The notes under the pieces: generated by a model
The model's input: only the letters and a program-made list of their open reading frames with translations
What the model was told of the DNA's origin: nothing
The model's database searches: none
Shown: positions 26,399-39,291 of the stretch, piece by piece
Position numbering within the stretch: the stretch's first letter is position 1
Layout of the letters: every line of letters starts with the position of its first letter
Made by a program: the position numbers and the translations under genes
From: Sphingomonadales bacterium
GTDB lineage: Bacteria; Pseudomonadota; Alphaproteobacteria; Sphingomonadales; Sphingomonadaceae
Direction of reading: 5' to 3'
DNA: 47,948 nt
Assembly: GCA_028870315.1 (NCBI GenBank)
Contig: JAGWPW010000107.1
Coordinates: forward strand, 1 to 47,948

Positions 26399-29300
26399 TT
26401 ACCGGTCCTTCAGCACCAGTGATCTTGCCCCGGGCGAGAGCGCCGGCCCGCGCCAGGCGCTCCAGTCGACCTCGTCCGACACCTTGTAGGGCAGCTTGCG
26501 GCTGTCGAGGAACAGCGCCTCCATCTCGGGCCGGGTGAAGGGGCGTGAGCCCAGCCGGCCGAAGACCGCGATCTGGCCGCCGGTCTCATCGACCGCGCGG
26601 TCGCGGTCGAGCCCCTTCGACATCGCCAGCGCCGGCGAGGGGGTGCGCGCCCAGGCGATCAGCTCGGGCACCGGCCGCGGCGAGAAGCCATAGTAATCGG
26701 GCTGGCTTTCGGGCGAGGTGAGCTGGATGACCTTCATCCCGTTGCGGCCATCGGCGACATAGGCGAACAGCGAGGCATTGGTCGAACCGACGATCACGTC
26801 CTCGGCATCGTTCATCTGCCCGCCGAAGGTGACCTTCTGATAGATGACCGGGCTCAGCGGCCGGGTGACGTTGACGATGACCAGCCCGTCCGCCTTGGCG
26901 GCGACATAGGCATAGGTGCGCGCGACATAGAGCTTGCGCGCGTTCGCGATCGGCACCGTCGCTTGCGGGATTGCCACCGGATTGCGCATGTCGGTCACGT
27001 CGAACAGCTTCAGCCCGTCGCGATCGGTCACCCACAGATAGCGGAACTGGAGCGCGCTCGCCCTTGCATCGGTCAACGGGCGCACCGCCGCGAGCCGCGG
27101 GTGCAGCGGATCGTGGAGATCAACCACGACCAGCCCGACATCGGCGGTGACATAGGCGATTTCGCCCGCGAGGATGACGTGGCGCGCGCCCTTCAGCACA
27201 TTGTCGGGGTTCCAGGTGACCGCGCGATGGAGGAAATTGTTCCGGAAATCGCCATCGGCCAGCGTGTCGACATTGACGAGGATGAGCCCCTCGGCGCTGT
27301 CGGTCACCGCCGCGTAGTGATAGATCGGCAGGAAGTCCTGCTCCTGGTTGATCTGGCGCAGCAGCGCGGTGTTGCGGGTGGGGGCGATCGACTGGTTGGT
27401 GGGCAGCGCGACGCAGGTGGCGTCGGGGCTCTTGACCGCGTCATGCTGGCCAAGCGGCGAGAATGGCGCCGAGACGATCGGCTCGGAGAAGCCCTTGTCG
27501 GCGATCGCGGCAATGTCATAGACGCGCAGACCGCCCTTGCCTTCGGCAACATAGAGATATTCGCCGCGCATCTGGATGCAGCCGACGCGATCGGCGGTGG
27601 CGTGCACCGGGTTGCGGAATTCCTCGATCGGATCGGTCTCGCCCGAAAGCTTCGCGTTGAAGGTCTTGCCGCGCACCCAGTTCCTGAGCTCGCGGTGGTT
27701 CTGCTCGACATGCAGGCGGTAATAGTCGGGATAGGCGTATTTCTGGAGATAGGAGCCGATCACCGCCTGCGGCTCCTTCCATTCGGTGACCCGCACCGCC
27801 TCGATGCCATGTTCAAGCCCGGTCCAGGCGTTCATGCCGACGAAATTGACGTAATTGGTGCCGAGCAGCAGCAGCTGCGCCATGATCGCGTTGTTGTCGT
27901 CCGCGCGGCTCAGATGGCAGTCGGTGCAGGTCTTGGTTTCCTGCGTGCGCACCGTATGCGGGAAGTGCGGCGCGAAGGCCTGGCTGGAGAAGCCGATCGC
28001 CGAGATCGGCGGCTGCTGCACATAGATGCGCTCGCGGTTGATGTTGGTGGAGGACAACACCAGTGCCGAGGTCGATCGCACCGGGGTGATCTCGGATCCC
28101 TTGGTGGTCATGTGCCGGCCGAGCTGGAACATGTCGTCGCGCGCCACCTGCGGATTATAGGTGGCGAAATTGCGGGTCGTCTCGCCCTCGAAATGATGCA
28201 TCGAGGTTTTCCAGTTGGCCTCGATCGGCAGATGGCAGCCCGCGCAGCTCGTCGTCCATGACAGATGGCAGGTGAAGCAGGCCATCTTGCTGTCGTCATG
28301 CGCGCGGTCGGTGCGGGCGATGCCGGGGCCGAAGGCGAAGCTGCCGTCCTGCGCCCCCGATCTGCTCATCAGCTTGGCGCGCGCCGACTTGGGATTGAAA
28401 TCGGGCGAGGCGGGATCGACGCTGTCCTTGACCAGATGGATGCGCCATTCGAGCTTGGGATCGACCACCGAACGCTGGATCAGGACCTGGTGGCCGGCGG
28501 CATCGGCCTGCCATTCGAAGCGGCGCTTGCCGTCGGGGTTGCGCAGCAGCGACAGATCGGTGCCATGCGGGGGCGCCGCCGGGCCGGAGGTGCGCAGGTT
28601 CGGATAGGCATCGACGGTGCCGTGGCAATCCTTGCAGCCGATCTCGATGGCGTTCGCCACCTCGCCATAGATGAAGCCGGTGCCGTGGCTGTCCTGCGCG
28701 TAATGGCAATCGGCGCATTGCAGGCCCTTTTCGGCATGGATGTCCATGAGATGGACGGCCTTGCCGGGGTTCACCCCCACCGGCGCGAACATGCCGACGC
28801 CGTTCCTGCGCCATTTCTCGGGATCGCTCCAGGCGATGATATGCTTCGTGTCGGTGCCGTAGCTTGCCATGTTGCCTTCGGCATCGAGCAGATTGCCCTC
28901 GCGATCGTGCTTGTAGACCGCGCGGAAATTCCAGCCATGCCCGTGATAATCGGCGAATTGCGTGTTCTTGAGCTTCGGGTTCAGCGAATAGACATTGCGC
29001 AGGAAGTCGAGGTCGGCCCATTTTCCGCGATCGGCCGCGCCCTCGGGATTGCGTTCGTTGGTGGCGCGGGTTTCGGCGGCGGTCGGATATTTCTGCTTTT
29101 CTGGCCACATGGCGGGCGCGTCGGACTCATAGTCCCACATCGTGTAGCCAAGATAGCTGTTCAGGAAGATATTGGGCTGATGCATGTGGCAGTTCATGCA
29201 TTGCGCGGTCGGGATCGAGCGGGTGAAGACATGCTGGAGCGGGTGGCCGCTTTCCCTGACCATCCCTCCGGCATCGGCCTCGTCCATCTGGCCGGGGCGC

Positions 29301-30475
29301 GCGGGCACGCGCTGGCTGGCGATCGTCGGGTCGCTGGTGATCGTCTGGCCGTCGCGACCGTATTGCGCATAGATCAGGCTGTGCCGCGGCTCGCGGTCGT
29401 TCGCATAGACCACATGGCACCCCGAACAGCCCGAGCTGCGATAGTCGCCCGGCTGGTCGTTGGTGCCAAGGAACCACATGAAGGGATCGTTGAGCCGGGT
29501 CTTGGTGATGTTGAGCACCGGGATCGCCACGCGCAGCCCGGTTCCGGGGCCGCGGTTCGACTGCTTGAGGTCGGGCCTGCCGGGTTCTTCGAGCCGCTGG
29601 ATGCTGCCGCTGTCGTTGGGCAGGCCGATCTCGGGGAACTGGGTGGCGATGTCGCGGCCGCCGCGCTCGAACACGCGGAACACGTCGGAAGGCGGGGTCA
29701 CCTGCCAGCTTGGCAGCGGATAGAGCGAGGCGAGCGCGCCGCGCTTGAGCTCGGCCTCGGTCAGCGTCCGGTTGCCGTCGAGCACGGTCGGCGGCGGGCA
29801 GGGATTGTGGGTTGCGGCAACGATGCTCGGCGAGCCGATGCAGGCCGACTTGCCGTCCCTCGTATAAGCCTCGCCGAAGACATAGCTTTTGAACGGCACG
29901 ATGCCGTTGTTATAGGCGCCGCCGCCCCACAGCATCGCCCCCGTTGCCATCAGCGAGCGTTCCGCCGCTTCGATGATCGGCAGGTGGCAGGCACCGCAGG
30001 CTTCGCGCGCGACGCGATAATCGCCCGGATTGACGAAGCGGATGAATTCGGGCGCCTCGCGATTGAGCAGCGTGTAGCTTTGCCGCGGATTGGCCGAGGA
30101 GGGGTAGTTCCACGCCCCGGGATAGCGCGGCAGCACATGCGCGCGCTCGCGCGCTGCGACATTGGCAGGTGCGGTAAAGGCGATCGCGGCATCGCCCCGC
30201 ACGCTGGCATCGCCGCCATGGCAATCGGTGCAGCCCAGCCTTACCGCGGGCGAGCTGTGCATCGTCGAGGCATCGGAACGGGTGTGGCAGCTGAGGCATC
30301 CGGCCGATTTCGCCGCCACCTGCTCCTCGCTCTGGCTGGCGGGCGCGTCGGGCGCCTTGACCCAGTGGCGGGCGACCGGGGCTTCCTGCTCCTGCGCGGC
30401 AAGGCCGGGCCAGCCGGCGCCAAACGCCGCGGCGAGAAGCGCGAACAGGGCGAAAAGGGAGCGCAGGTGTCGCAT
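26399..30475 (-). CDS. decaheme c-type cytochrome with C-terminal LVIVD-repeat region
   Basis: 1358 residues with a signal peptide (MRHLRSLFALFALLAAAFG, cleavage near residue 27). Ten CxxCH heme motifs begin at Cys60, 82, 160, 350, 426, 587, 614, 733, 744 and 850. From about residue 960 the sequence has repeats of the LVIVD type, such as GLVVVDLHDPLHPRL, GLKLFDVTDMRNPV, GLVIVNVTRPLSP and GMKVIQLTSPES, consistent with a beta-propeller. The cytochrome part may carry electrons while the propeller docks to a partner or the cell surface; this is inference. It is the last gene of a four-gene operon, its ATG overlapping the beta-barrel stop by one base (TGATG). Export beyond the periplasm is not shown by the sequence. 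No catalytic motif of known nitrite, tetrathionate or hydroxylamine enzymes is recognised. Confidence 0.92.
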   Translation of the reverse strand: MRHLRSLFALFALLAAAFGAGWPGLAAQEQEAPVARHWVKAPDAPASQSEEQVAAKSAGCLSCHTRSDASTMHSSPAVRLGCTDCHGGDASVRGDAAIAFTAPANVAARERAHVLPRYPGAWNYPSSANPRQSYTLLNREAPEFIRFVNPGDYRVAREACGACHLPIIEAAERSLMATGAMLWGGGAYNNGIVPFKSYVFGEAYTRDGKSACIGSPSIVAATHNPCPPPTVLDGNRTLTEAELKRGALASLYPLPSWQVTPPSDVFRVFERGGRDIATQFPEIGLPNDSGSIQRLEEPGRPDLKQSNRGPGTGLRVAIPVLNITKTRLNDPFMWFLGTNDQPGDYRSSGCSGCHVVYANDREPRHSLIYAQYGRDGQTITSDPTIASQRVPARPGQMDEADAGGMVRESGHPLQHVFTRSIPTAQCMNCHMHQPNIFLNSYLGYTMWDYESDAPAMWPEKQKYPTAAETRATNERNPEGAADRGKWADLDFLRNVYSLNPKLKNTQFADYHGHGWNFRAVYKHDREGNLLDAEGNMASYGTDTKHIIAWSDPEKWRRNGVGMFAPVGVNPGKAVHLMDIHAEKGLQCADCHYAQDSHGTGFIYGEVANAIEIGCKDCHGTVDAYPNLRTSGPAAPPHGTDLSLLRNPDGKRRFEWQADAAGHQVLIQRSVVDPKLEWRIHLVKDSVDPASPDFNPKSARAKLMSRSGAQDGSFAFGPGIARTDRAHDDSKMACFTCHLSWTTSCAGCHLPIEANWKTSMHHFEGETTRNFATYNPQVARDDMFQLGRHMTTKGSEITPVRSTSALVLSSTNINRERIYVQQPPISAIGFSSQAFAPHFPHTVRTQETKTCTDCHLSRADDNNAIMAQLLLLGTNYVNFVGMNAWTGLEHGIEAVRVTEWKEPQAVIGSYLQKYAYPDYYRLHVEQNHRELRNWVRGKTFNAKLSGETDPIEEFRNPVHATADRVGCIQMRGEYLYVAEGKGGLRVYDIAAIADKGFSEPIVSAPFSPLGQHDAVKSPDATCVALPTNQSIAPTRNTALLRQINQEQDFLPIYHYAAVTDSAEGLILVNVDTLADGDFRNNFLHRAVTWNPDNVLKGARHVILAGEIAYVTADVGLVVVDLHDPLHPRLAAVRPLTDARASALQFRYLWVTDRDGLKLFDVTDMRNPVAIPQATVPIANARKLYVARTYAYVAAKADGLVIVNVTRPLSPVIYQKVTFGGQMNDAEDVIVGSTNASLFAYVADGRNGMKVIQLTSPESQPDYYGFSPRPVPELIAWARTPSPALAMSKGLDRDRAVDETGGQIAVFGRLGSRPFTRPEMEALFLDSRKLPYKVSDEVDWSAWRGPALSPGARSLVLKDR

Positions 30476-32382
30476 CAGAAGTTGAAAATCACATTGCCGA
30501 GGATGGAGTAATAGTTCGAATCACCGCTGGAATTGCCGAACAGGTCGCGCATCCCCTGCCCGGCGACGAGCAGCGCCGCCGACAGGCGCAGGATGATGTT
30601 CTGCGTCGCCTTGGGCCGCCAGGTGACCGCGCTCGACAGATCCCAGCCGATGTCACGGGCGATGTTGCCCTGCTGGCGCAGCGTTTCGAGCACGCCGGTT
30701 TCGGCGAACCAGAGATGGTTGGCGTTGGTCGCGAGCCGCAGCGTCGGCAGCAGGTCGAAATCGGCGCCCACCCCGGTGAGTACCGTGCCGGGATTGACGA
30801 AATTGGACTGGCCGAGGTCCTTCGAGGTGCGCAGGTCGTTCAAGATGCCGTTGGGCTGGTTGAGCGCGATCGCCCGGCCGCCGGCGATGAAGGGGATGCT
30901 CTGGCGGATCCAGTAGCTGGTGTCGGCGCCGGCGAAGATCGGGTTCTCGTAGATCGCGTCGAAACCCGTCTCGGTCTTCGAATAGACGTTCGACTGGCCG
31001 CTGGAGTAAAGGCCCGAGACGCGCAGGCGCATCCAGTCGTGGTCGTAGCTCGCCTCGGCGGCAAGGAAATAGGCGCTGATGTCGGCCGCCTGGCCGGTGA
31101 ACTGGCTGACGCTGTCATGCCCGAACAGGTAATAGGCGGACGCGGTCAGGTTCATGCGGTGGATATGGCCATCGGCGTTGTAGCCGAGATAGAAGGCATC
31201 GTAATCGTGCCCTCTCAGATTGCCGATGAGCGCGGGGCGTTCGGGAAATCCGTTCTGGTCGTAGTAATATTCGTTGGCTTCGCGGTTGCGGTTGTAGACG
31301 AAGGTGAGCTGGCTGGTGAAGCCGGGGATCAGGAAATCCTGGCGATAGACATTGGCCAGGAACACCTGATCGTGCCGCGGCGCCTGGGTCACGTCGTTGA
31401 GCCCGGAATTGATGTTCTTTTCCAGCCGCCAGAACACCGCGAGATTATATTGCAGGCGGTTGTCGTCGCGATCGCCGAACAGGCGGATGCCGAGCTGCTC
31501 GTCGTTGAACAGGAAGCCGCGGAAATCAGCCTGGAAAGGCTGGATGCCCACCCGGATCGAATCGAAATCGTATCGCGCCGAGGTGTTGCGCAGGTGATAG
31601 TCGATATACGCTTCCTGGAGCGCGACATCGGTATCGAAGCGGTGCGGCGCACGGGCGGCATCGACGTTGAGGATCTGCCGTTCGGAGACCTGCGCGTAAT
31701 TGACGTTGAAGCCAAGGCTGATGTGATATTCGATCTCGGGCGGCTTGAAGGTGGTGCTGCCCTTGATCAGCGAGGCGCTGACCAGGAAGGTCTGCGACAG
31801 CGCGATGCTGCGGTCGCCGCCGAAGGTGCTGAGGTCATGGCCGTTCTGCCCGGCCGCGTTCGACACCGGCAGCGGCAGGCTGCGCGCCTCGACCACCGAA
31901 TCGCTGGTGAAATTGCCCTCGAAGAACCAGTCATCGCCATGGATCGGCAGCCAGGGAACCTTGGCGGGATCGAGCGGGATGTCGCCCTTCAGCGGGTTCT
32001 GGTGATAGGGATCGCTTTGGCCGTGGCAGACCTCGCGCTCGCCCGCGAAGGCTTCGAGGATGGTCTGGTCGCCGCCCTTCGCCGGGCACAGGCTCGACAT
32101 GATCCGCCAGCGGTCGGGCAGCGGCAGCGTATCGCCGGGGAAGGCCTGCGGCGGCGGCGCCGCCACCGCGCCCTGGTTGGTGGGCAGCACGAGCGGCGGG
32201 GGCAGCGCCTCGTTGTAGCCGGGCTTGCGCCGCCCGGCGATGATCCCCGCATCGGGCGGCGCCTTGTCGGGCTGGTCGTCGGCTGCCGGCGCGACCGCTA
32301 CCGTCGGTGCTGGCGCCGGCGGCGGTGCATCGGCGCTCGCCTGCGCGAGAATGCCGGCGAGGATGAGCGCCAGCCCCGCCAC
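30475..32382 (-). CDS. large outer-membrane beta-barrel protein
   Basis: 635 residues. A signal peptide (MAGLALILAGILAQA) precedes a proline-rich linker to about residue 90. Two cysteines follow (SSLCPAKGG, REVCHGQSD), then long alternating-polarity strands typical of an outer-membrane barrel, such as YHISLGFNVNYAQVSE, SQLTFVYNRNREANEYYYD and HRMNLTASAYYLFG. The chain ends GNVIFNF, with the terminal Phe recognised by the BAM complex. The size suits a large barrel like those that house cytochromes in porin-cytochrome conduits. I see no sequence signature proving homology to MtrB or PioB. The start is GTG 32382, sharing one base with the stop of the lipoprotein gene (TAGTG), and the stop overlaps the decaheme ATG, so the genes are tightly coupled. 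Confidence 0.88.
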   Translation of the reverse strand: MAGLALILAGILAQASADAPPPAPAPTVAVAPAADDQPDKAPPDAGIIAGRRKPGYNEALPPPLVLPTNQGAVAAPPPQAFPGDTLPLPDRWRIMSSLCPAKGGDQTILEAFAGEREVCHGQSDPYHQNPLKGDIPLDPAKVPWLPIHGDDWFFEGNFTSDSVVEARSLPLPVSNAAGQNGHDLSTFGGDRSIALSQTFLVSASLIKGSTTFKPPEIEYHISLGFNVNYAQVSERQILNVDAARAPHRFDTDVALQEAYIDYHLRNTSARYDFDSIRVGIQPFQADFRGFLFNDEQLGIRLFGDRDDNRLQYNLAVFWRLEKNINSGLNDVTQAPRHDQVFLANVYRQDFLIPGFTSQLTFVYNRNREANEYYYDQNGFPERPALIGNLRGHDYDAFYLGYNADGHIHRMNLTASAYYLFGHDSVSQFTGQAADISAYFLAAEASYDHDWMRLRVSGLYSSGQSNVYSKTETGFDAIYENPIFAGADTSYWIRQSIPFIAGGRAIALNQPNGILNDLRTSKDLGQSNFVNPGTVLTGVGADFDLLPTLRLATNANHLWFAETGVLETLRQQGNIARDIGWDLSSAVTWRPKATQNIILRLSAALLVAGQGMRDLFGNSSGDSNYYSILGNVIFNF

Positions 32383-34352
32383 TACAGCCCCTGGCAGACG
32401 TTCTGCGCGTTGGAATTGATGAACGGCGACTGCGGGCAGAGGACATAATCGAGATGCGCGCTGTTGCCGTTGCTCAGCGGCACGACGATCTGGTCGGCGC
32501 GGATGCCGACCGGCGCATTGCCGATCGTGCCGGTCTGCTGCCCGGCGTTGTTGAGCCCGAGGAAGGAGATCATGTCGTCCTGGCCGACGCCGTCGCCCGA
32601 AACCCCGAGCCCGCCGACCAGCGTGCCGCCGCGATAGATCGGCACCGAGCCCGGAAAGATCTGGATGCCGTTCTGCACGCGGTTCTGCCCCGGCACGACA
32701 TCGGGGCTGGTGGTGCAGCGTTGCGGGGTGTCGGTCGCCGCGGCGCCGGTGACATAGGCGAGATGCGCGGCGAGATTGTCGAGGATCAGCGCCGCCTGAA
32801 GCCCGGTGGCGAAGGGGTTGAACTGCGCGGCAGGCACCGAGAAGGGGCCATTGGGGCTACCCACCGTGCCGTCGGGGAAGGTCGGCCGGGACAGATCGCC
32901 GCCGGCGCGGTCGGTGAAGGCGTAACGGCCGGTGAGCGCGGCCGGATCCTTGAGGAAGGCGCGCACCGCGGCGACGAAGCTTGCGACCTTGGGACCGGGA
33001 AGCGCCGCGGTCGGCCCCGGGTTGGCGAGCAGATCGGCGGCGGCGCTGGCGTTCGAATTGAACGCGGCGGTGCGCGCCTTCTGCAAGGAGACGTCGATCC
33101 CGAAGATCGGCGCGTCGGGGCCGCGCACCAGCCCCAGCGGCACGCCATGCGTATCGACCACGCTGATCGACACCTGCGCCGGGCTGCTTATGGGGTTGCG
33201 GATCGCGGCGCGCGCCTCGCTCATCACCGCATAGGCCTGGGTGAGGATCGTCTGCACCTCGCTTGCGGTGAGCGGGCTCGCGACATCGGCGCCATCGGTG
33301 CCGGCGCGCGCCGGGTAGCGATTGTTGCCCGCGCCGTCGGACAGCACGAAGGCGCCGGCGGTGGCGAATTCGCCACCGGTCGCGGGCCGGATCCCCGACG
33401 CTTCGCTGCCATAGGTCGAACCGGCGATTATCGCGCCGGCGGTGTAGCCGGTCAGCGCCTCGAGCGTGCCCTGCGCCGCCGCGGTCGCGTAGTTCGCGCC
33501 GCCGAGCGCGGTCAGCTGGTTGGTCGCGACATCGGAATAGATGAGCTGCACCCCGGCGGCATAGATGGTGCTGGCGAGGATCGCGGCGGGAGCATCGTAA
33601 CCCACCGTGCCGGCAAGCGCGATGCGCTCGTCGGTGACGAGATTGGTGGCCTGGACATTGCTGTCGTAGCTGTATTGGCCATCGGCTTCGACGCCGATGC
33701 CGCCGACGACCACCCCGTTCTTGTACAGCGGAAAGCCGCCGGGGTCGGCCGACAGGCCGAGCGGCGAACGCTTCGGACCGATCAGCGCCGCCGCCCCCGC
33801 CGCGCCGAAGCGCTGCGACAGGTCCGAACAGGGCAACTGGCTGAACTGCACCCCGAACAGCGGGCCGCTGCCCAGCCCGACCGTGCCCGGCTCGGGCGGG
33901 AATTGCGGCTGGACGATCTCGCTCGCGGTGCGGGTCGAAAAGGCGTTGCCGCCGCTCGACAGATAGGCGCCGGTGATCGCCTTGGCGATCGCCGAGGCTT
34001 CGGCGGGCACGTTGAGCCCCTGCAACTGGATGTCGCTGCCGTTGGGGGCATCGGCGATATGCGCGGTGGCGGGCGCGCCGGTCATGCGGAACAGCGCCAG
34101 CACATTGCCCACCCGATCGACCACCGAGATCACCGCCGGCTGGCCATCGGCCTGTGCCTGGGTGATCGCCTGGGCAAGGATCTGCTGAACATCGCCCGTG
34201 GTCAGCGCCTCGGCCGCGGGGGCGGCGAGCGTCGCCGCCCCGCCCGCGCCGCCGACGCTGGCGTTGCTGCTTCCCGCGCCGCCGCCGCCGCCGCAGGCCG
34301 AAAGCAGCAGGCTGAGCCCGGCGACGAGCGAGACCGCGGCGCGCCCGATCAT
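32382..34352 (-). CDS. lipoprotein with two GlcG/HbpS-type domains
   Basis: 656 residues. The lipobox LLSAC gives a lipidated Cys20 followed by a Gly/Ser/Ala linker. Two copies of a GlcG/HbpS-like domain follow. The first starts LTTGDVQQILAQAITQAQ with ISVVDRVGNVLALFRM and ends around LYKNGVVVGGIGVEADG. The second starts LTASEVQTILTQAYAVM with SISVVDTHGVPLGLVRG and ends IYRGGTLVGGLGVSGDG. Each unit is about 250 residues, nearly twice the usual 130-140, with inserts. HbpS binds haem, so a role with the adjacent cytochromes is plausible, but no CxxCH is present. The ATG overlaps the stop of the pentaheme gene (ATGA), and the stop overlaps the barrel start. Membrane side unknown. Confidence 0.87.
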   Translation of the reverse strand: MIGRAAVSLVAGLSLLLSACGGGGGAGSSNASVGGAGGAATLAAPAAEALTTGDVQQILAQAITQAQADGQPAVISVVDRVGNVLALFRMTGAPATAHIADAPNGSDIQLQGLNVPAEASAIAKAITGAYLSSGGNAFSTRTASEIVQPQFPPEPGTVGLGSGPLFGVQFSQLPCSDLSQRFGAAGAAALIGPKRSPLGLSADPGGFPLYKNGVVVGGIGVEADGQYSYDSNVQATNLVTDERIALAGTVGYDAPAAILASTIYAAGVQLIYSDVATNQLTALGGANYATAAAQGTLEALTGYTAGAIIAGSTYGSEASGIRPATGGEFATAGAFVLSDGAGNNRYPARAGTDGADVASPLTASEVQTILTQAYAVMSEARAAIRNPISSPAQVSISVVDTHGVPLGLVRGPDAPIFGIDVSLQKARTAAFNSNASAAADLLANPGPTAALPGPKVASFVAAVRAFLKDPAALTGRYAFTDRAGGDLSRPTFPDGTVGSPNGPFSVPAAQFNPFATGLQAALILDNLAAHLAYVTGAAATDTPQRCTTSPDVVPGQNRVQNGIQIFPGSVPIYRGGTLVGGLGVSGDGVGQDDMISFLGLNNAGQQTGTIGNAPVGIRADQIVVPLSNGNSAHLDYVLCPQSPFINSNAQNVCQGL

Positions 34353-35704
34353 CTGAGCGTCCCGATCGCCTGCGCGGCATCGGCCAGCGCCGCGCGGAAG
34401 GCGGGAGGGTTGTAGGAATTGGGCGCGTGCACCGCGTCATAGGCGCGGTTGATGCTGGCGCGGATCCCCGCCGCCGCGCCGACCGTGATCCGGCCTTCGT
34501 GGACCAGCGCGTTGAGCAGCGTGTCGAGCGCCATCACCGCCTGGACCGAACCTTCGTAATCGGTGAAACGCGGCGCGCTGGCGCGGCCGGCGATCGCCGC
34601 GACGAGCGTGAAGGCGGCGTCAGGCCGCTCGGGCATGGCGGCGAACGCGCTTTCGAGCGACGCGGCGGCGCTGGCCAGATGCGCTGCCGCCGCCGCAGGT
34701 GCGCGGCCGCTGCCGATCGCCGCGTGGAAGGCGCGCGCCGCCTCGTCGAAGCCGGTCGCCGCGCCGGGAGCGAAGACATGCGCCGCCGCCGACAGCAGGA
34801 TCATGTTCTCATCGTTGTAGGGCGGCGTGCCGAAGGGGATCGGCCGTGCCGGATTGACCTCGAAGGCATGCGTGCGCGCCGGATTGTCCTCGATCTGGCG
34901 ATGGCAGCTGTGGCAGTCGAAGAAATAGAATTCGGGGAACAGCCCTTGCGAGCCGTAGCCGGGGGTCGCGAACAGGCTGACCGAGCGCCGCACCGCCTCG
35001 GCCTGGCCCACCGCCCAGAGCTTCACATGATCGCTCGGGCCCTTGCGCCGCGCATAGGCCGCATCCTCGTTCCAGTGCTGTTCGAGCGCGGAAAACAGGT
35101 CGAGCTCGAAGGAAATGCGCGGATGGCCGGCGGCCATCATGCGATGGGTGACGAAATGGCCGGGCTCGCTCGATCCGAAGTGGCACGAAAGACAGACGGC
35201 GGCGCGGATCTGCGGGCGGTCGAGCGCGACCATGCCATGCGCGACATTGGCGGCGTGCGTGGCGCCCACCGCGTAATGCCCGGCAAGCCAGGCCGAAGCC
35301 GGGCCATGGCAGGATTCGCAGCCCACCCCGTCGCTCGGCTGGAAGCGCGGCCCGACCGGCGCCCCGCCGGTCGCGTGGCAGCCAAGGCAGGCGGGCGCCG
35401 CGGTTGCCGGGCCCAGCGCCAATGCGTCGGCGATCCGCTTGCCGCGCGCGCTGGCTAGCGCCGCCCAGGCGCGGCTATGCGCGCCTTCGGGGCTCGACGG
35501 GTCCTGCCAATGGGCGATCTCGTCCTGCCGCACCACCGGCCCGTTGCCTTCGGCACGGCCGTGGCAGGTCGAGCCGGCGCAGCTTGCCACCCCTTCGAGC
35601 GTGCCGCCGGCCAACACCGGCGCGCCCGATCCGAACGCGGCAAGCGCCAGCGCCGCGAGCAGCAGGCGCAGCAGCGCCGGCGCGGGCAGCCCGCCTATGG
35701 GCAT
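34349..35704 (-). CDS. pentaheme cytochrome c, cytochrome c554-like
   Basis: 451 residues with a signal peptide (cleavage near residue 32, PVLAGG). Five covalent haem sites are visible: an unusual CAGSTCH (C42-H48, four residues between the cysteines), then CLGCH (106-110), CESCH (129-133), CLSCH (171-175) and CHSCH (264-268). The context SCAGSTCHG with DGVGCESCHGPASAWL is the pattern of the cytochrome c554-type family. A helical C-terminal part without haem sites follows from residue 290. It is the first gene of the multiheme operon and is probably periplasmic, where it could pass electrons to or from the barrel and decaheme partner. The start is ATG 35704; the upstream part of the frame is not conserved-looking. 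Confidence 0.92.
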   Translation of the reverse strand: MPIGGLPAPALLRLLLAALALAAFGSGAPVLAGGTLEGVASCAGSTCHGRAEGNGPVVRQDEIAHWQDPSSPEGAHSRAWAALASARGKRIADALALGPATAAPACLGCHATGGAPVGPRFQPSDGVGCESCHGPASAWLAGHYAVGATHAANVAHGMVALDRPQIRAAVCLSCHFGSSEPGHFVTHRMMAAGHPRISFELDLFSALEQHWNEDAAYARRKGPSDHVKLWAVGQAEAVRRSVSLFATPGYGSQGLFPEFYFFDCHSCHRQIEDNPARTHAFEVNPARPIPFGTPPYNDENMILLSAAAHVFAPGAATGFDEAARAFHAAIGSGRAPAAAAAHLASAAASLESAFAAMPERPDAAFTLVAAIAGRASAPRFTDYEGSVQAVMALDTLLNALVHEGRITVGAAAGIRASINRAYDAVHAPNSYNPPAFRAALADAAQAIGTLR

Positions 35705-36012
35705 GGGACGGCCTTTGCGGCGCGCGGTTCATTTCCGGCAAGCGCGGCGGGCGGGCGTGAGCGGCCGCTGCGCAGGCTCCCGGTATGAACAAGATCCCCC
35801 ATGTCGCGGCCCCCCAAGCGCGCGAAAACATAACCGAAGCGCGTGAAAGGGAAAGGTGAAATTCGCGCCGCCTGCCGCGCGGCGGGCGCCGTTGCGACCA
35901 TCGCCGGCCGGCCGCTGCGGTTTTCATCGCTTGCGCATGTTTCGCACTTGCAGCTTGCGTCAAAGTGGCGATGATCCGCGCCGGTTTGGGGCAGTTTGCG
36001 AAAGGGCGGGCG
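35705..36012. promoter_or_regulatory. divergent intergenic region (308 bases) between the multiheme operon and the ThDP enzyme
   Basis: It must hold promoters for both directions. CGCGCGAAAACATAACCGAAGCGCG (about 35820-35845) has spaced CGCGC/GCGCG arms around an AT-rich centre containing a minus-strand TATGTT (-10-like), but no good -35 lies 17 bases away. No recognisable FNR, ArcA or sigma-54 site is visible. GAAAGGGCGGGCG before ATG 36013 serves as SD for the plus-strand gene. I see no gene here. Confidence 0.4.
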
Positions 36013-37698
36013 ATGAGCGGACAGGCAGGGGGAAAGGGCGCGAAGAAGGCGTCGGACCTATTCGTCGAATGCCTTGAGGAGGAGGGCTGCGAATATGTCT
36101 TCGGCGTGCCGGGCGAGGAAAACCTCGATCTGCTCGATTCGCTGTCGCGCTCGACGAAGATCAGGCTGATCCTGACCCGGCACGAACAGGGCGCGGGCTT
36201 CATGGCCGCAACCTATGGCCGCCACACCGGCAAGACCGGGGTGTGCATGGCAACGCTGGGGCCGGGGGCGACCAATTTCGTCACCGCTGCTGCCTATGCG
36301 ACGCTGGGCGGCATGCCGATGCTGATGATCACCGGCCAGAAGCCAATCAAGAAATCGAAGCAGGGCCGCTTCCAGATCCTCGATGTCGTCTCGATGATGA
36401 CGCCGATCACCAAGACCGCGCATCAGATGGCGTCCGCCGACAATATCCCCAGTCGCCTTCGCGAGGCCTTCCGCCTTGCCGAGGAGGAGAAGCCCGGCGC
36501 CACCCATATCGAACTCCCCGAGGACATCGCCGACGAATATACCGATTCGGTCCCGCTCAGGCGCAGCAAGGTGCGCCGCCCGATCGCCGATGCCAAGTCG
36601 GTCGCGCTCGCCGCGCGCACGATCCAGGAGGCCAAGGCGCCGATCCTTGTCATCGGCGCGGGCGCCAACCGCAAGATGACCGGCAAGATGCTGCTCGAAT
36701 TCGTCGAGAAGACCGGCATCCCCTTCCTCACCACGCAGCTCGGCAAGGGGGTGATCGACGAGCGTCACCCCAAATTCGTCGGCTGCGCGGCGCTTTCGGC
36801 GGGCGATTTCGTCCATCGCGCGATCGAGGATTCGGACTGCATCCTCAATGTCGGCCATGACGTGATCGAAAAGCCGCCGTTCTTCATGAAGAACGCGGGC
36901 GAAGGACGCGATGCCGATGTCATCCATATCTCGACCAAGACCGCCGAGGTCGATCCGGTCTATTTCCCCGATATCGAGGTGATCGGCGACATCGCCAATT
37001 CGATCTGGCAGATCAACGAGGCGGTCGACGTCAATCCCGCCTGGAATTTCAGCAAGATGCTGAGCTACCGCGCGGCCGAGGTGAAGCACACCGCGGGGCT
37101 GGCCGCGGATGAACGCTTCCCCGTCTTCCCGCCGCATCTGGTGCAGGCGGTGCGCAAGGTGATGCCCGATGACGGGATCATCTGCCTCGACAACGGCGTC
37201 TACAAGATCTGGTTCGCGCGCGGCTATACCGCGACCGGCCCCAACACGGTGCTGCTCGACAATGCGCTGGCCACCATGGGCGCGGGGCTTCCCAGCGCGA
37301 TGATGAGCGCGATGCTCTATCCCGAGCGCAAGGTGTTCGCGATCTGCGGCGATGGCGGCTTCATGATGAACAGCCAGGAGATGGAAACCGCGGTCCGGCT
37401 GAAGCTGAACCTGACGGTCATCGTCCTGCGCGACGATGCCTATGGCATGATCCGCTGGAAGCAGGCGAACATGGGCTTCAAGGACTTCGGCCTGACCTAT
37501 GGCAACCCCGATTTCGTCGCCTATGCCAAAAGCTACGGCGCGCATGGCCATCGGGTGAACAGCGCGCATCACCTCGCGCAGCTTCTGGCGCATTGCCGCG
37601 ATACGCCAGGGGTGCATCTGGTGGAATGCGCGGTCGATTATTCGGAGAACGACCAGATCTTGAACCGGGACATCAAGACGCTGTCGAAGGCGCTTTGA
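36013..37698 (+). CDS. ThDP-dependent acetolactate synthase-type large subunit
   Basis: 561 residues. The catalytic Glu of the ThDP family is in VFGVPGEENLDLLDSL, with a RHEQGAGFMAATYGR block next. The ThDP/Mg site GDGGFMMNSQEMETAVRLKLN and the conserved NLTVIVLRDDAYGMIRW are present. The middle domain (ADAKSVALAARTIQEAKAP) has the acetolactate-synthase layout. No regulatory small subunit gene is adjacent, so it is probably the catabolic type that makes acetolactate from pyruvate. A related 2-oxoacid decarboxylase or carboligase cannot be excluded. The start is ATG 36013, chosen by SD; the open frame extends 16 codons upstream. The aldehyde dehydrogenase gene follows 153 bases later. Confidence 0.9.
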   Translation: MSGQAGGKGAKKASDLFVECLEEEGCEYVFGVPGEENLDLLDSLSRSTKIRLILTRHEQGAGFMAATYGRHTGKTGVCMATLGPGATNFVTAAAYATLGGMPMLMITGQKPIKKSKQGRFQILDVVSMMTPITKTAHQMASADNIPSRLREAFRLAEEEKPGATHIELPEDIADEYTDSVPLRRSKVRRPIADAKSVALAARTIQEAKAPILVIGAGANRKMTGKMLLEFVEKTGIPFLTTQLGKGVIDERHPKFVGCAALSAGDFVHRAIEDSDCILNVGHDVIEKPPFFMKNAGEGRDADVIHISTKTAEVDPVYFPDIEVIGDIANSIWQINEAVDVNPAWNFSKMLSYRAAEVKHTAGLAADERFPVFPPHLVQAVRKVMPDDGIICLDNGVYKIWFARGYTATGPNTVLLDNALATMGAGLPSAMMSAMLYPERKVFAICGDGGFMMNSQEMETAVRLKLNLTVIVLRDDAYGMIRWKQANMGFKDFGLTYGNPDFVAYAKSYGAHGHRVNSAHHLAQLLAHCRDTPGVHLVECAVDYSENDQILNRDIKTLSKAL

Positions 37699-37733: not shown

Positions 37734-37851
37734 CCCGGTGCCGATGCAGCGGGTGATGGCGCTGCCGGACGCTGCCCGGGCGCCGCGAAATGGAACGGAA
37801 ATATGGGGGGCCACGGTCTCCCGCATTCCCCTCATTCTTCAGGAATCGCTT

Positions 37852-39291
37852 ATGCCGCAACTCCAGGCCTCCTACCCGCTCTATCTCAACAACAAGGCGG
37901 CGCAGCCCAATCTCGATCTCAAGGTGACCGACAAGTTCACCGGCGAGGTGGCCTTCCGCACCGCGCTCGCGACGCCTGATGTCATCGACGCGGCGATCGC
38001 CGGCGCGGTGCGCGCGGCCGAGCCCTTCGCCGGTATGGCGAGCTATGAGCGCCAGGCGGTGCTCGACCATTGCGTCAGGCGCTTCCGCGAGCGCTTCGAC
38101 GAGCTCGCCTGGGCGCTGTGCATCGAGGCGGGCAAGCCGATCGCCGATGCCGAAGGCGAGGTGACGCGGCTCATCGACACCTTCCGCCTCGCGGCCGAGG
38201 AGGCGACGCGCAATTACGGCGAGGTCCAGCCGCTGGACATCAGCGCGCGCTCGAAGGGCTACATGGGGATGTGGAAGCGGGTGCCGATCGGCCCGTGCAG
38301 CTTCATCTCGCCGTTCAATTTCCCGCTCAACCTCGCTGCGCACAAGATCGCGCCGGCCATCGCGGTCGGCTGCCCCTTCGTGATGAAGCCCGCCAGCCTG
38401 ACGCCGCTGGGCGCGATCATCATCGGCGAGATCCTTGCCGAGACCGACCTTCCCGAAGGCGCCTTCTCGATCCTGCCGGCCAGCCGCGACGGCGCCGATC
38501 TGTTCACCACCGACGACCGGCTGAAGCTCCTCTCCTTCACCGGTTCACCCGGTGTCGGCTGGGATCTGAAAGCGCGCGCGGGCAAGAAGAAGGTGGTGCT
38601 CGAACTCGGCGGCAATGCCGCGGTGGTGGTCGATGCCGATGCCGATCTCGACCATGCGCTCGAACGGATCATCTTCGGCGGCTATTACCAGTCGGGCCAG
38701 AGCTGCATCCATGTGCAGCGGGTGATCGTCCACGAGGCGGTCTATGACACCTTCCGCGACCGGCTGGCGGCGCGGGTCAGGACGCTGGTCTCGGGCGATC
38801 CCAAGGACCGCAGGACCTTCATCGGCCCGATGATCTCGGCCAGGGAGGCGGCGCGGCTCAAGGGCTGGATCGACAGCGCGGTTTCGGGCGGAGCAAGGCT
38901 GCTCGCCGGCGGCGGCTGCGACAGGGCGATGCTTGAGGCGACGCTGGTCGAGAATTGCGACCGCGCGGCCGATCTCTATCGCGAGGAGGCCTTCGGCCCG
39001 GCGGTGATCCTCTCGAAATTCTCAGCGTGGCAGGATGCGCTGGCCGAGGTCAACGACAGCAAGTTCGGGCTGCAGGCGGGAATCTTCACCCGCGATCTCC
39101 ACAAGGTGCTCGCCGCCTGGGACAAGCTCGAGGTCGGCGGGGTCGTGGTCAACGACGTCTCCTCCTTCCGCGTCGACAACATGCCCTATGGCGGGGTGCG
39201 CGATTCGGGGCTTGGCCGCGAGGGTGTGCGCTTCGCCATCGAGGACATGACCGAGATCAGGAATCTGGTGATCCGGCGCGCGCCGGTCTGA
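37852..39291 (+). CDS. NAD(P)-dependent aldehyde dehydrogenase
   Basis: 479 residues, normal for the aldehyde dehydrogenase superfamily. Visible sites are the oxyanion Asn in SPFNFPLNLAAHK, the cofactor stretch SFTGSPGVGWDLK, the general base Glu in VVLELGGNAAVV, the nucleophile Cys in YYQSGQSCIHVQR, and the C-terminal EEAFGPAVILSKF with LQAGIFTRD. It oxidises an aldehyde to the acid in the cytoplasm; the substrate cannot be told. The long open frame extends upstream, but ATG 37852 (giving MPQLQASYPLYL) fits the family. It follows the ThDP gene in the same direction. A link to the PQQ dehydrogenase 0.7 kb downstream (alcohol, then aldehyde, then acid) is an inference only. Confidence 0.94.
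   Translation: MPQLQASYPLYLNNKAAQPNLDLKVTDKFTGEVAFRTALATPDVIDAAIAGAVRAAEPFAGMASYERQAVLDHCVRRFRERFDELAWALCIEAGKPIADAEGEVTRLIDTFRLAAEEATRNYGEVQPLDISARSKGYMGMWKRVPIGPCSFISPFNFPLNLAAHKIAPAIAVGCPFVMKPASLTPLGAIIIGEILAETDLPEGAFSILPASRDGADLFTTDDRLKLLSFTGSPGVGWDLKARAGKKKVVLELGGNAAVVVDADADLDHALERIIFGGYYQSGQSCIHVQRVIVHEAVYDTFRDRLAARVRTLVSGDPKDRRTFIGPMISAREAARLKGWIDSAVSGGARLLAGGGCDRAMLEATLVENCDRAADLYREEAFGPAVILSKFSAWQDALAEVNDSKFGLQAGIFTRDLHKVLAAWDKLEVGGVVVNDVSSFRVDNMPYGGVRDSGLGREGVRFAIEDMTEIRNLVIRRAPV

Follow-up and report, generated by a model that had tools for sequence, protein, structure and literature searches.

We describe a four-gene operon on a contig from a Sphingomonadales bacterium (contig C75 of its own genome, 47.9 kb); this whole stretch of DNA is called the window below, and all positions are given in its coordinates. 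We propose that the four genes encode the outer half, in the periplasm and outer membrane, of an NAD(P)H-driven electron-export chain that spans the cell envelope, a reading to which we assign a probability of about 0.55. The other half would be a conserved inner-membrane module which accompanies the operon's decahaem-LVIVD gene in every sampled genome that has it (39/39 in the order and 11/11 in the phylum), and which probably feeds the operon. The four open reading frames (ORFs), in 5' to 3' order, are:

34349-35704, minus strand: pentahaem c-type cytochrome with a c554-like N-terminal part and a signal-peptide-like start (motifs, PF13435, PDB 1bvb)
32382-34352, minus strand: lipoprotein with two HbpS/GlcG domains (PF03928, lipobox)
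30475-32382, minus strand: outer-membrane beta-barrel (residues 150-634, about 18 strands) preceded by a conserved N-terminal extension (AlphaFold2 model, structure matches)
26399-30475, minus strand: decahaem c-type cytochrome (residues ~28-960) with a C-terminal LVIVD repeat domain, 1,358 residues in all (ten CXXCH, PF08309)

Successive genes overlap by 4, 1, and 1 bases, and together they carry 15 haem motifs: ten CXXCH in the LVIVD protein, and four CXXCH plus one CX4CH in the pentahaem cytochrome. The initial annotation had described just this, four overlapping minus-strand genes of these kinds, with 15 haem sites over two exported cytochromes and a lipoprotein with two GlcG domains, and our reanalysis agrees with it throughout. 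A promoter and terminator scan around the operon returned sites no more numerous than in shuffled sequence.

We identified at least 589 stretches encoding a relative in a scan of genome_contigs and kept the best 80 as loci. The titles of 77 of these 80 name sphingomonad taxa, in genera that we take to be members of Sphingomonadales, and the other three say only Alphaproteobacteria or Proteobacteria. The order cytochrome, GlcG lipoprotein, barrel, LVIVD protein on one strand is kept in 68 of the 80 loci, and the spacing between genes, whether gap or overlap, is at most 50 bases at 65/68, 58/70, and 73/76 of the three junctions, respectively. Eleven of the 12 loci lacking the full set are cut by a contig end, leaving a single real exception (L004). 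The LVIVD gene is also found on 13 plasmids, 12 from Sphingobium and one from Sphingopyxis; all three of the plasmid regions that we examined contain the complete four-gene set, and names such as hypothetical, heme-binding, multiheme, or cytochrome c family protein are given to the parts of the system in those records. Two cyanobacterial plasmid matches to the LVIVD protein are weak and cover the tail alone. The gene set and its order thus recur, and the possibility raised in the initial annotation, that the four genes do not co-occur elsewhere, fails.

The motifs of the encoded proteins are conserved along with the gene order. In the pentahaem cytochrome, the four CXXCH and the CX4CH site (CAGSTCH in the window) are kept in 66/66 full-length relatives; the protein matches the cytochrome c554 family (PF13435, E 6e-9) and the structure of cytochrome c-554 (PDB 1bvb, E 4.5e-6), and we propose that it serves as a periplasmic carrier. 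The GlcG protein has four stretches matching HbpS/GlcG (PF03928, E 1.6e-24; 86.8 bits, above the gathering score of 25), a lipobox at Cys20 in the window, and a lipobox pattern in 65/69 relatives. Its profile is closest among solved structures to EfgA (6bws, E 5e-9), followed by a putative haem-binding protein (4nkp, E 3e-4); no His is invariant in the GlcG alignment, H530 alone being nearly so, and it is the family name only that points to a putative haem-handling role.

The tail of the LVIVD protein matches PF08309 in three stretches (E 2.5e-13; 49.6 bits, above the gathering score of 20.2). All 77 full-length relatives have ten CXXCH, and each of these ten sites is invariant across the 78 aligned proteins, the window's included, as are 12 further His in the haem part. 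We propose that this protein is the terminal cytochrome, probably located in the outer membrane or at the surface; its profile had no match at E≤0.01 among PDB sequences. For the barrel, we found no family in Pfam-A at E≤1 (hmmscan), a single match among PDB sequences at E 0.55, and sub-threshold similarity to a Desulfovibrio-type porin model. The initial annotation had highlighted a barrel ending in Phe, which is true of the window but does not hold generally: 60/71 relatives end in Tyr and 11/71 in Phe.

In most loci, a second conserved set of genes adjoins the operon on the opposite strand. Its entry protein combines thioredoxin reductase (TrxR)/YpdA-like flavin adenine dinucleotide (FAD) and NAD(P) domains with two cyclic-nucleotide-binding domains and four [4Fe-4S] motifs; in the entry protein of S. 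herbicidovorans, two stretches match PF00027 at 105 bits, above the gathering score of 27.5. The entry-protein alignment has 71 usable rows from 69 sources (three further loci covering 90% or less were left out), and in all 71 rows the 16 Fe-S Cys, the glycines of the FAD GxGxxG motif, an Arg after the second nucleotide-binding strand, and the Glu and Arg of both cyclic-nucleotide pockets are invariant. We take the Glu and Arg to be residues of the phosphate-binding cassette, and the Arg after the second strand would suit NADPH. The small membrane protein (b protein) has two H-X13-H pairs in predicted helices, H98/H112 and H265/H279, kept in 75/75 rows (73 sources); ferric reductases and NADPH oxidases hold their two stacked b haems in this layout. 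The b protein had no match below E 0.26 among PDB sequences. The third component, the inner cytochrome, joins an FHA domain to a decahaem part and has one membrane span; its ten haem sites are kept in 70/70 rows (69 sources), as ten CXXCH in 68 and as nine CXXCH plus one CX4CH in genomes G344 and G228.

In the same two genomes, from two species of one genus, the entry and b proteins form one continuous ORF, and this natural fusion argues for direct contact between them. The fused ORFs lie at L108:3052-6423 and L109:9850-13206 and encode 1,123 or 1,118 residues, in genomes showing no LVIVD outer module. In the window's own genome, the inner module is adjoined by a porin-like ORF of 481 residues with a coiled-coil-like N terminus and no Pfam match (L087:4085-5530).

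In the sampled genomes, the outer set never appears apart from the inner module. Of the 80 loci, 63 have the inner decahaem gene by tblastn and 61 by ORF clustering, and 60 of these 61 are convergent with the operon; in ten of the 19 loci without it, the downstream sequence runs out within 4 kb. Among 196 Sphingomonadales genomes (E≤1e-20 for either protein), the LVIVD protein was found in 39 and the inner decahaem protein in 39, and the two sets of genomes are identical. With 39 of 196 genomes carrying the set, and the many stretches encoding a relative, the system is not unusual for a sphingomonad, contrary to what had initially been supposed. The two genes lie within 30 kb of each other in 22 of the 39 genomes, more than 100 kb apart on the same contig in six, and on different contigs in 11, some of which may be assembly breaks; the modules are thus not visibly linked in 17 of the 39. 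Five genera (g1, g3, g4, g6, and g7) include both carriers and non-carriers among the listed rows, and in them the two proteins are present or absent together; 137 of the 196 genomes have no match and do not appear among these rows. On plasmids, all 12 with the inner decahaem gene also have the LVIVD gene.

We extended the comparison to a phylum sample of 398 genomes (E≤1e-15 for the LVIVD protein and E≤1e-100 for the entry protein). The LVIVD protein was found in 11 genomes and the entry protein in the same 11 and in four more, although such whole-genome searches score only a few candidates per genome (two in this sample), and absences are not absolute. In G345, which has the entry protein without an LVIVD match, the contig ends inside the barrel gene, and the system may be complete. 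Outside the order the two modules can merge: G545, from another class, encodes entry protein, b protein, inner decahaem cytochrome, GlcG lipoprotein, barrel, LVIVD protein, and pentahaem cytochrome as one collinear block on one strand, and G553, from another family outside the order, has entry protein, b protein, inner decahaem cytochrome, pentahaem cytochrome, glutamate dehydrogenase (GDH), GlcG lipoprotein, barrel, and LVIVD protein. A search of 197 genomes from the order of G545 matched two, G545 itself and G690; we did not count G690 as a carrier, its match (E 2.5e-16) being confined to the propeller tail. Adjacent to the seven-gene block of G545 (L102:416-7031) are genes for a FecR-domain protein and a TPR-like protein, and one for a protein of 1,352 residues that combines cadherin-like and beta-propeller domains.

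We infer the following chain from the parts, motifs, conservation, gene order, joint inheritance, and entry/b fusion seen in the sequences. Electrons from cytosolic NAD(P)H, probably NADPH, would enter at the FAD domain of the entry protein, with its two cyclic-nucleotide domains and four predicted [4Fe-4S] clusters, and pass to two stacked b haems of the b protein. From there they would move to the membrane-anchored FHA decahaem cytochrome and to the pentahaem cytochrome. The barrel, the GlcG lipoprotein, and the decahaem-LVIVD cytochrome, assembled in the outer membrane, would then take them up and deliver them to an acceptor at or beyond this membrane. The level of the nucleotide that would gate electron entry, for example cyclic AMP, may be set by the products of nearby genes, a class III cyclase and a phosphodiesterase-like protein, and an NADP-GDH, together with a thiamine diphosphate (ThDP) enzyme and an aldehyde dehydrogenase (ALDH), could supply the NADPH. 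In its boldest form, which we hold only tentatively and at clearly less than even odds, this would be a second-messenger-gated and quinone-independent exporter: a chain of a single flavin, four Fe-S clusters, two b and 25 c haems would let aerobic alphaproteobacteria vent electrons from NADPH across both membranes, under the control of a cyclic nucleotide whose synthesis and breakdown would be encoded in the same gene neighbourhood.

The stretch from NAD(P)H to the predicted periplasmic haems is well supported at the level of sequence, because of the invariant b-haem His, the entry/b fusion, the Fe-S Cys, the FAD glycines, and the inner haem sites. The weak point is the outer membrane, the crossing of which is unproven. 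The same NAD(P)H chain might instead serve a periplasmic reductase, with the pentahaem and LVIVD proteins staying in the periplasm and the substrate entering through the barrel; we consider this possible, though less likely than export. The predicted barrel structure favours it: the AlphaFold2 model (predicted local distance difference test, pLDDT, 58; predicted template modelling score, pTM, 0.58) has 18 strands and is nearest to 18-strand transport channels, namely AlgE (4afk, Foldseek E 4.6e-17; Z about 24 for AlgE and OccK7, VIA) and the OprD/Occ channels, with 3.0-3.5 Å over 320-370 residues for most top rows. If the model is right, such a barrel is not evidently wide enough to sheath the pentahaem cytochrome. 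MtrB does not appear in the lists of structural matches, which is no evidence against an MtrB-like fold. For the haem domain of the LVIVD protein, modelled over residues 28-962 from 68 sequences, the prediction was of no use (pLDDT 45, pTM 0.29).

Two comparisons with Geobacter also speak for a periplasmic reductase. The haem part of the LVIVD protein has weak similarity to the ExtM, ExtN, and ExtO models, at 68.7, 19.4, and 21 bits against NCBIfam equivalog cut-offs of 800, 200, and 200, that is, far below them; and ExtI, a porin encoded beside multihaem genes, affects the conversion of selenite and tellurite and not the reduction of Fe(III) citrate, according to PMC5877670. On the other hand, no catalytic haem lacking a His ligand is evident in the LVIVD protein, and the 12 invariant non-motif His of its haem part are numerous enough to cap all ten haems, as putative ligands. 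Moreover, when a decahaem protein ending in long repeats is encoded in tight order with an outer-membrane lipoprotein and a barrel, this usually signals export at the outer membrane.

Inward flow, in which the outer cytochromes would oxidise an external donor such as Fe(II), Mn(II), or an electrode, appears improbable. Similar parts do serve Fe(II) oxidation in the PioAB and MtoAB systems. However, the protein at the inner end of the chain, a pyridine-nucleotide flavoprotein carrying four [4Fe-4S] motifs, is no quinone reductase or bc-type acceptor, the transfer of electrons from Fe(II) or Mn(II) to NAD(P)+ is steeply uphill, and the neighbouring GDH and ALDH would make NADPH in the degradative direction. 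Least credible of all is a chance neighbourhood or strain oddity, in which four unrelated exported genes merely overlap. The window's contig does lack other recurrent neighbour families besides the ThDP/ALDH pair, but the order and strand kept in 68/80 loci, the invariant haem motifs, and the coincidence with the inner module in the same 39 genomes already contradict it.

Several further observations weigh against the export chain as we propose it. Nine of the 80 loci have about 10 kb of downstream sequence and yet no inner decahaem gene, and one of the 13 LVIVD plasmids, Sphingopyxis pMC4, also lacks it (the plasmid alone was searched). In G344 (76% complete), G228, and G196, the entry protein is present with no LVIVD match at E≤1e-15, and no outer module was seen in the stretches read of these genomes; the inner module can thus stand without the LVIVD outer half, whereas these samples gave no case of the outer half standing alone. 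In locus L004 (L004:1-8118), the barrel and LVIVD genes are present and the GlcG and pentahaem genes are absent from the 8 kb upstream. In the window's genome, the partner module lies on contig C18, apart from C75, and linkage therefore does not imply joint expression there. The start of the LVIVD protein shows no lipobox. The b protein stays below the cut-offs of its nearest families, Ferric_reduct (PF01794, E 0.006; 17.1 bits, cut-off 28) and cytochrome b561 (E 1.4e-4). Finally, the best models for the metallophosphoesterase encoded beside the inner module are cyclic-nucleotide phosphodiesterases, again below cut-off (NCBIfam SpdA, cut-off 400 bits: 132.6 in L082 and 124.5 in the window's genome; CpdA, cut-off 225 bits: 78 and 82.4, respectively).

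Some of these cases have features of their own. L004 is the only locus with upstream room that lacks the GlcG and pentahaem genes; it may represent a variant, or a metagenome contig that was binned wrongly. In G196, a lone copy of the entry-protein gene lies beside a 1,092-residue ORF for a protein with FIST and class III cyclase domains (L111:4469-7747), and another contig (L110) carries the entry-protein gene again, there together with the b and decahaem genes.

We also surveyed the genes neighbouring the system in 89 sources. These are not 89 genomes, since G444 (L100, L113), G545 (L102, L112), and the window's genome (window, C18) each appear twice; close relatives are frequent among the sources, and distant neighbours would lie beyond the ends of many short loci. 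Antisense ORF families were judged spurious and disregarded. The recurrent families are the phosphodiesterase-like protein (67 sources; annotated cpdA in one record), a CcmH-type TPR protein (57), the NADP-GDH family (32), and a CHASE2 cyclase (24). The cyclase upstream of the operon in Sphingobium L119 is 49-57% identical to other CHASE2 cyclases near the system over their full length, the window's genome encodes a 52% identical one on contig C69, and in G444, from another order, the gene lies between the phosphodiesterase-like and LVIVD genes. These are raw counts, and the association of cyclic-nucleotide genes with the system draws on its recurrence across orders.

In L119, a gene for an ShlB-type transporter and a large exported-looking ORF separate the CHASE2 cyclase from the operon. 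The transporter and an ORF of 1,900-2,100 residues stand upstream of the operon in two Sphingobium plasmids (L119:1-10543 and L082:509-8662); the ORF, which has no Pfam match in L119, is perhaps the secreted partner of the transporter. Genes for a CHAT protein, the CHASE2 cyclase, and a small ORF precede this pair in L119.

Other neighbours could bear on the supply of NADPH. GDH genes occur in various positions, G444 and G553 included, and the enzyme of S. indica is NADP-specific by its model (725 bits, cut-off 536). In the window, two divergent genes adjoin the operon, and besides this pair no other ORF of the contig falls into the recurrent neighbour families recognised as genes:

35965-37698, plus strand: ThDP enzyme of the acetolactate-synthase family (PRK08322), divergent neighbour (NF006187, 871 bits, cut-off 509)
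37738-39291, plus strand: ALDH, neighbour, with its true start probably downstream of 37738 (PDB matches)

The best PDB matches of the ALDH are three chains named just aldehyde dehydrogenase (best E 1.4e-218), followed by ALDH21 (5mz5, E 3.6e-164), its closest specifically named solved relative. The ThDP/ALDH pair lies beside the system in 12 of the 89 sources, of which two are one genome and one is the window, and it also adjoins the system in G444. The pair is a candidate for a bypass through 2-oxoglutarate decarboxylase and succinic-semialdehyde dehydrogenase, the first assignment being one that we presume from a cyanobacterial gene pair. The accessible part of PMC10418658 describes such a 2-oxoglutarate bypass and does not tie this ThDP subfamily to it. 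A route from glutamate through 2-oxoglutarate to succinate that yields NADPH would fit the chain.

Like MtrCAB, PioAB, and MtoAB, the system encodes an outer-membrane barrel together with exported multihaem cytochromes, and electrons are proposed to pass the outer membrane. It differs from them in having a pentahaem c554-like protein in place of a DmsE-type decahaem MtrA (TIGR03508, 18.0 bits, cut-off 192.2), an LVIVD-tailed outer cytochrome with a GlcG lipoprotein, and an NAD(P)H flavoprotein as electron source in place of a quinol dehydrogenase. Pfam presumably includes an MtrB/PioB model, and the barrel, having no Pfam match, does not belong to that sequence family by this measure; it has 18 modelled strands, whereas MtrB has 26. 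The electron conduit or redox complex suggested by the initial annotation stands in part, as a redox system of a barrel and multihaem cytochromes; an MtrB-type sheath is not seen, a haem wire through the barrel would be hypothetical, and the operon would be only half of the machine.

The b protein resembles ferric reductases and NADPH oxidases in having two helices that each bear two His about 14 residues apart. In the eukaryotic enzymes of these kinds, as in bacterial MsrQ/Fre-type chains, this arrangement holds two stacked bis-His b haems, which are fed by cytosolic NAD(P)H and FAD and deliver the electrons across a membrane. Unlike in these systems, four [4Fe-4S] motifs and two cyclic-nucleotide domains would lie between flavin and haem here, and the receiver would be a chain of 25 predicted c haems and the outer membrane. 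The extHIJKLMNOPQS cluster of Geobacter sulfurreducens, for selenite and tellurite reduction, is likewise comparable in gene content, with a porin-like gene, pentahaem ExtKL, ExtM (12 haems), ExtN (10 haems), and the inner-membrane cytochrome b ExtP; in contrast, Ext includes a Rieske protein and a rhodanese-like protein, and for it the accessible part of PMC5877670 names neither a GlcG lipoprotein nor an LVIVD tail, and neither a FAD/cyclic-nucleotide/Fe-S protein nor an FHA cytochrome.

We also weighed a putative role in tellurite or selenite reduction, given the similarity to ExtM and the reduction of tellurite by aerobic phototrophs, but no gene can be tied to the purified enzyme: the NADH-dependent membrane enzyme that reduces tellurite in aerobic phototrophs has subunits of 62 and 55 kDa, a mass-spectrometry match to GroEL, and no known gene, as far as the accessible part of PMC5488091 goes. 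In the titles and abstract openings among the matches listed from the open-access literature (most subscription papers and all preprints fall outside it), this gene set is undescribed, and none of the open-access papers searched joins LVIVD with multiheme. The main text of a large-scale prediction of outer-membrane multihaem cytochromes (PMC11475568) contains no mention of Sphingo, Erythrobacter, Novosphingobium, Alphaproteobacteria, LVIVD, or cyclic nucleotide. The electron-transport chain is thus apparently undescribed.

A conserved chain of about 27 predicted haems is present in roughly one sampled genome in five of this mostly aerobic order. Extracellular electron transfer has been studied mostly in metal-respiring anaerobes, where it starts from the quinone pool. 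If our reading is correct, these bacteria would be able to pass electrons directly from NAD(P)H to the outside, with regulation through cyclic-nucleotide domains. The fate of surplus electrons in such bacteria would then become testable, and the chain might bear on tellurite reduction by aerobic phototrophs.

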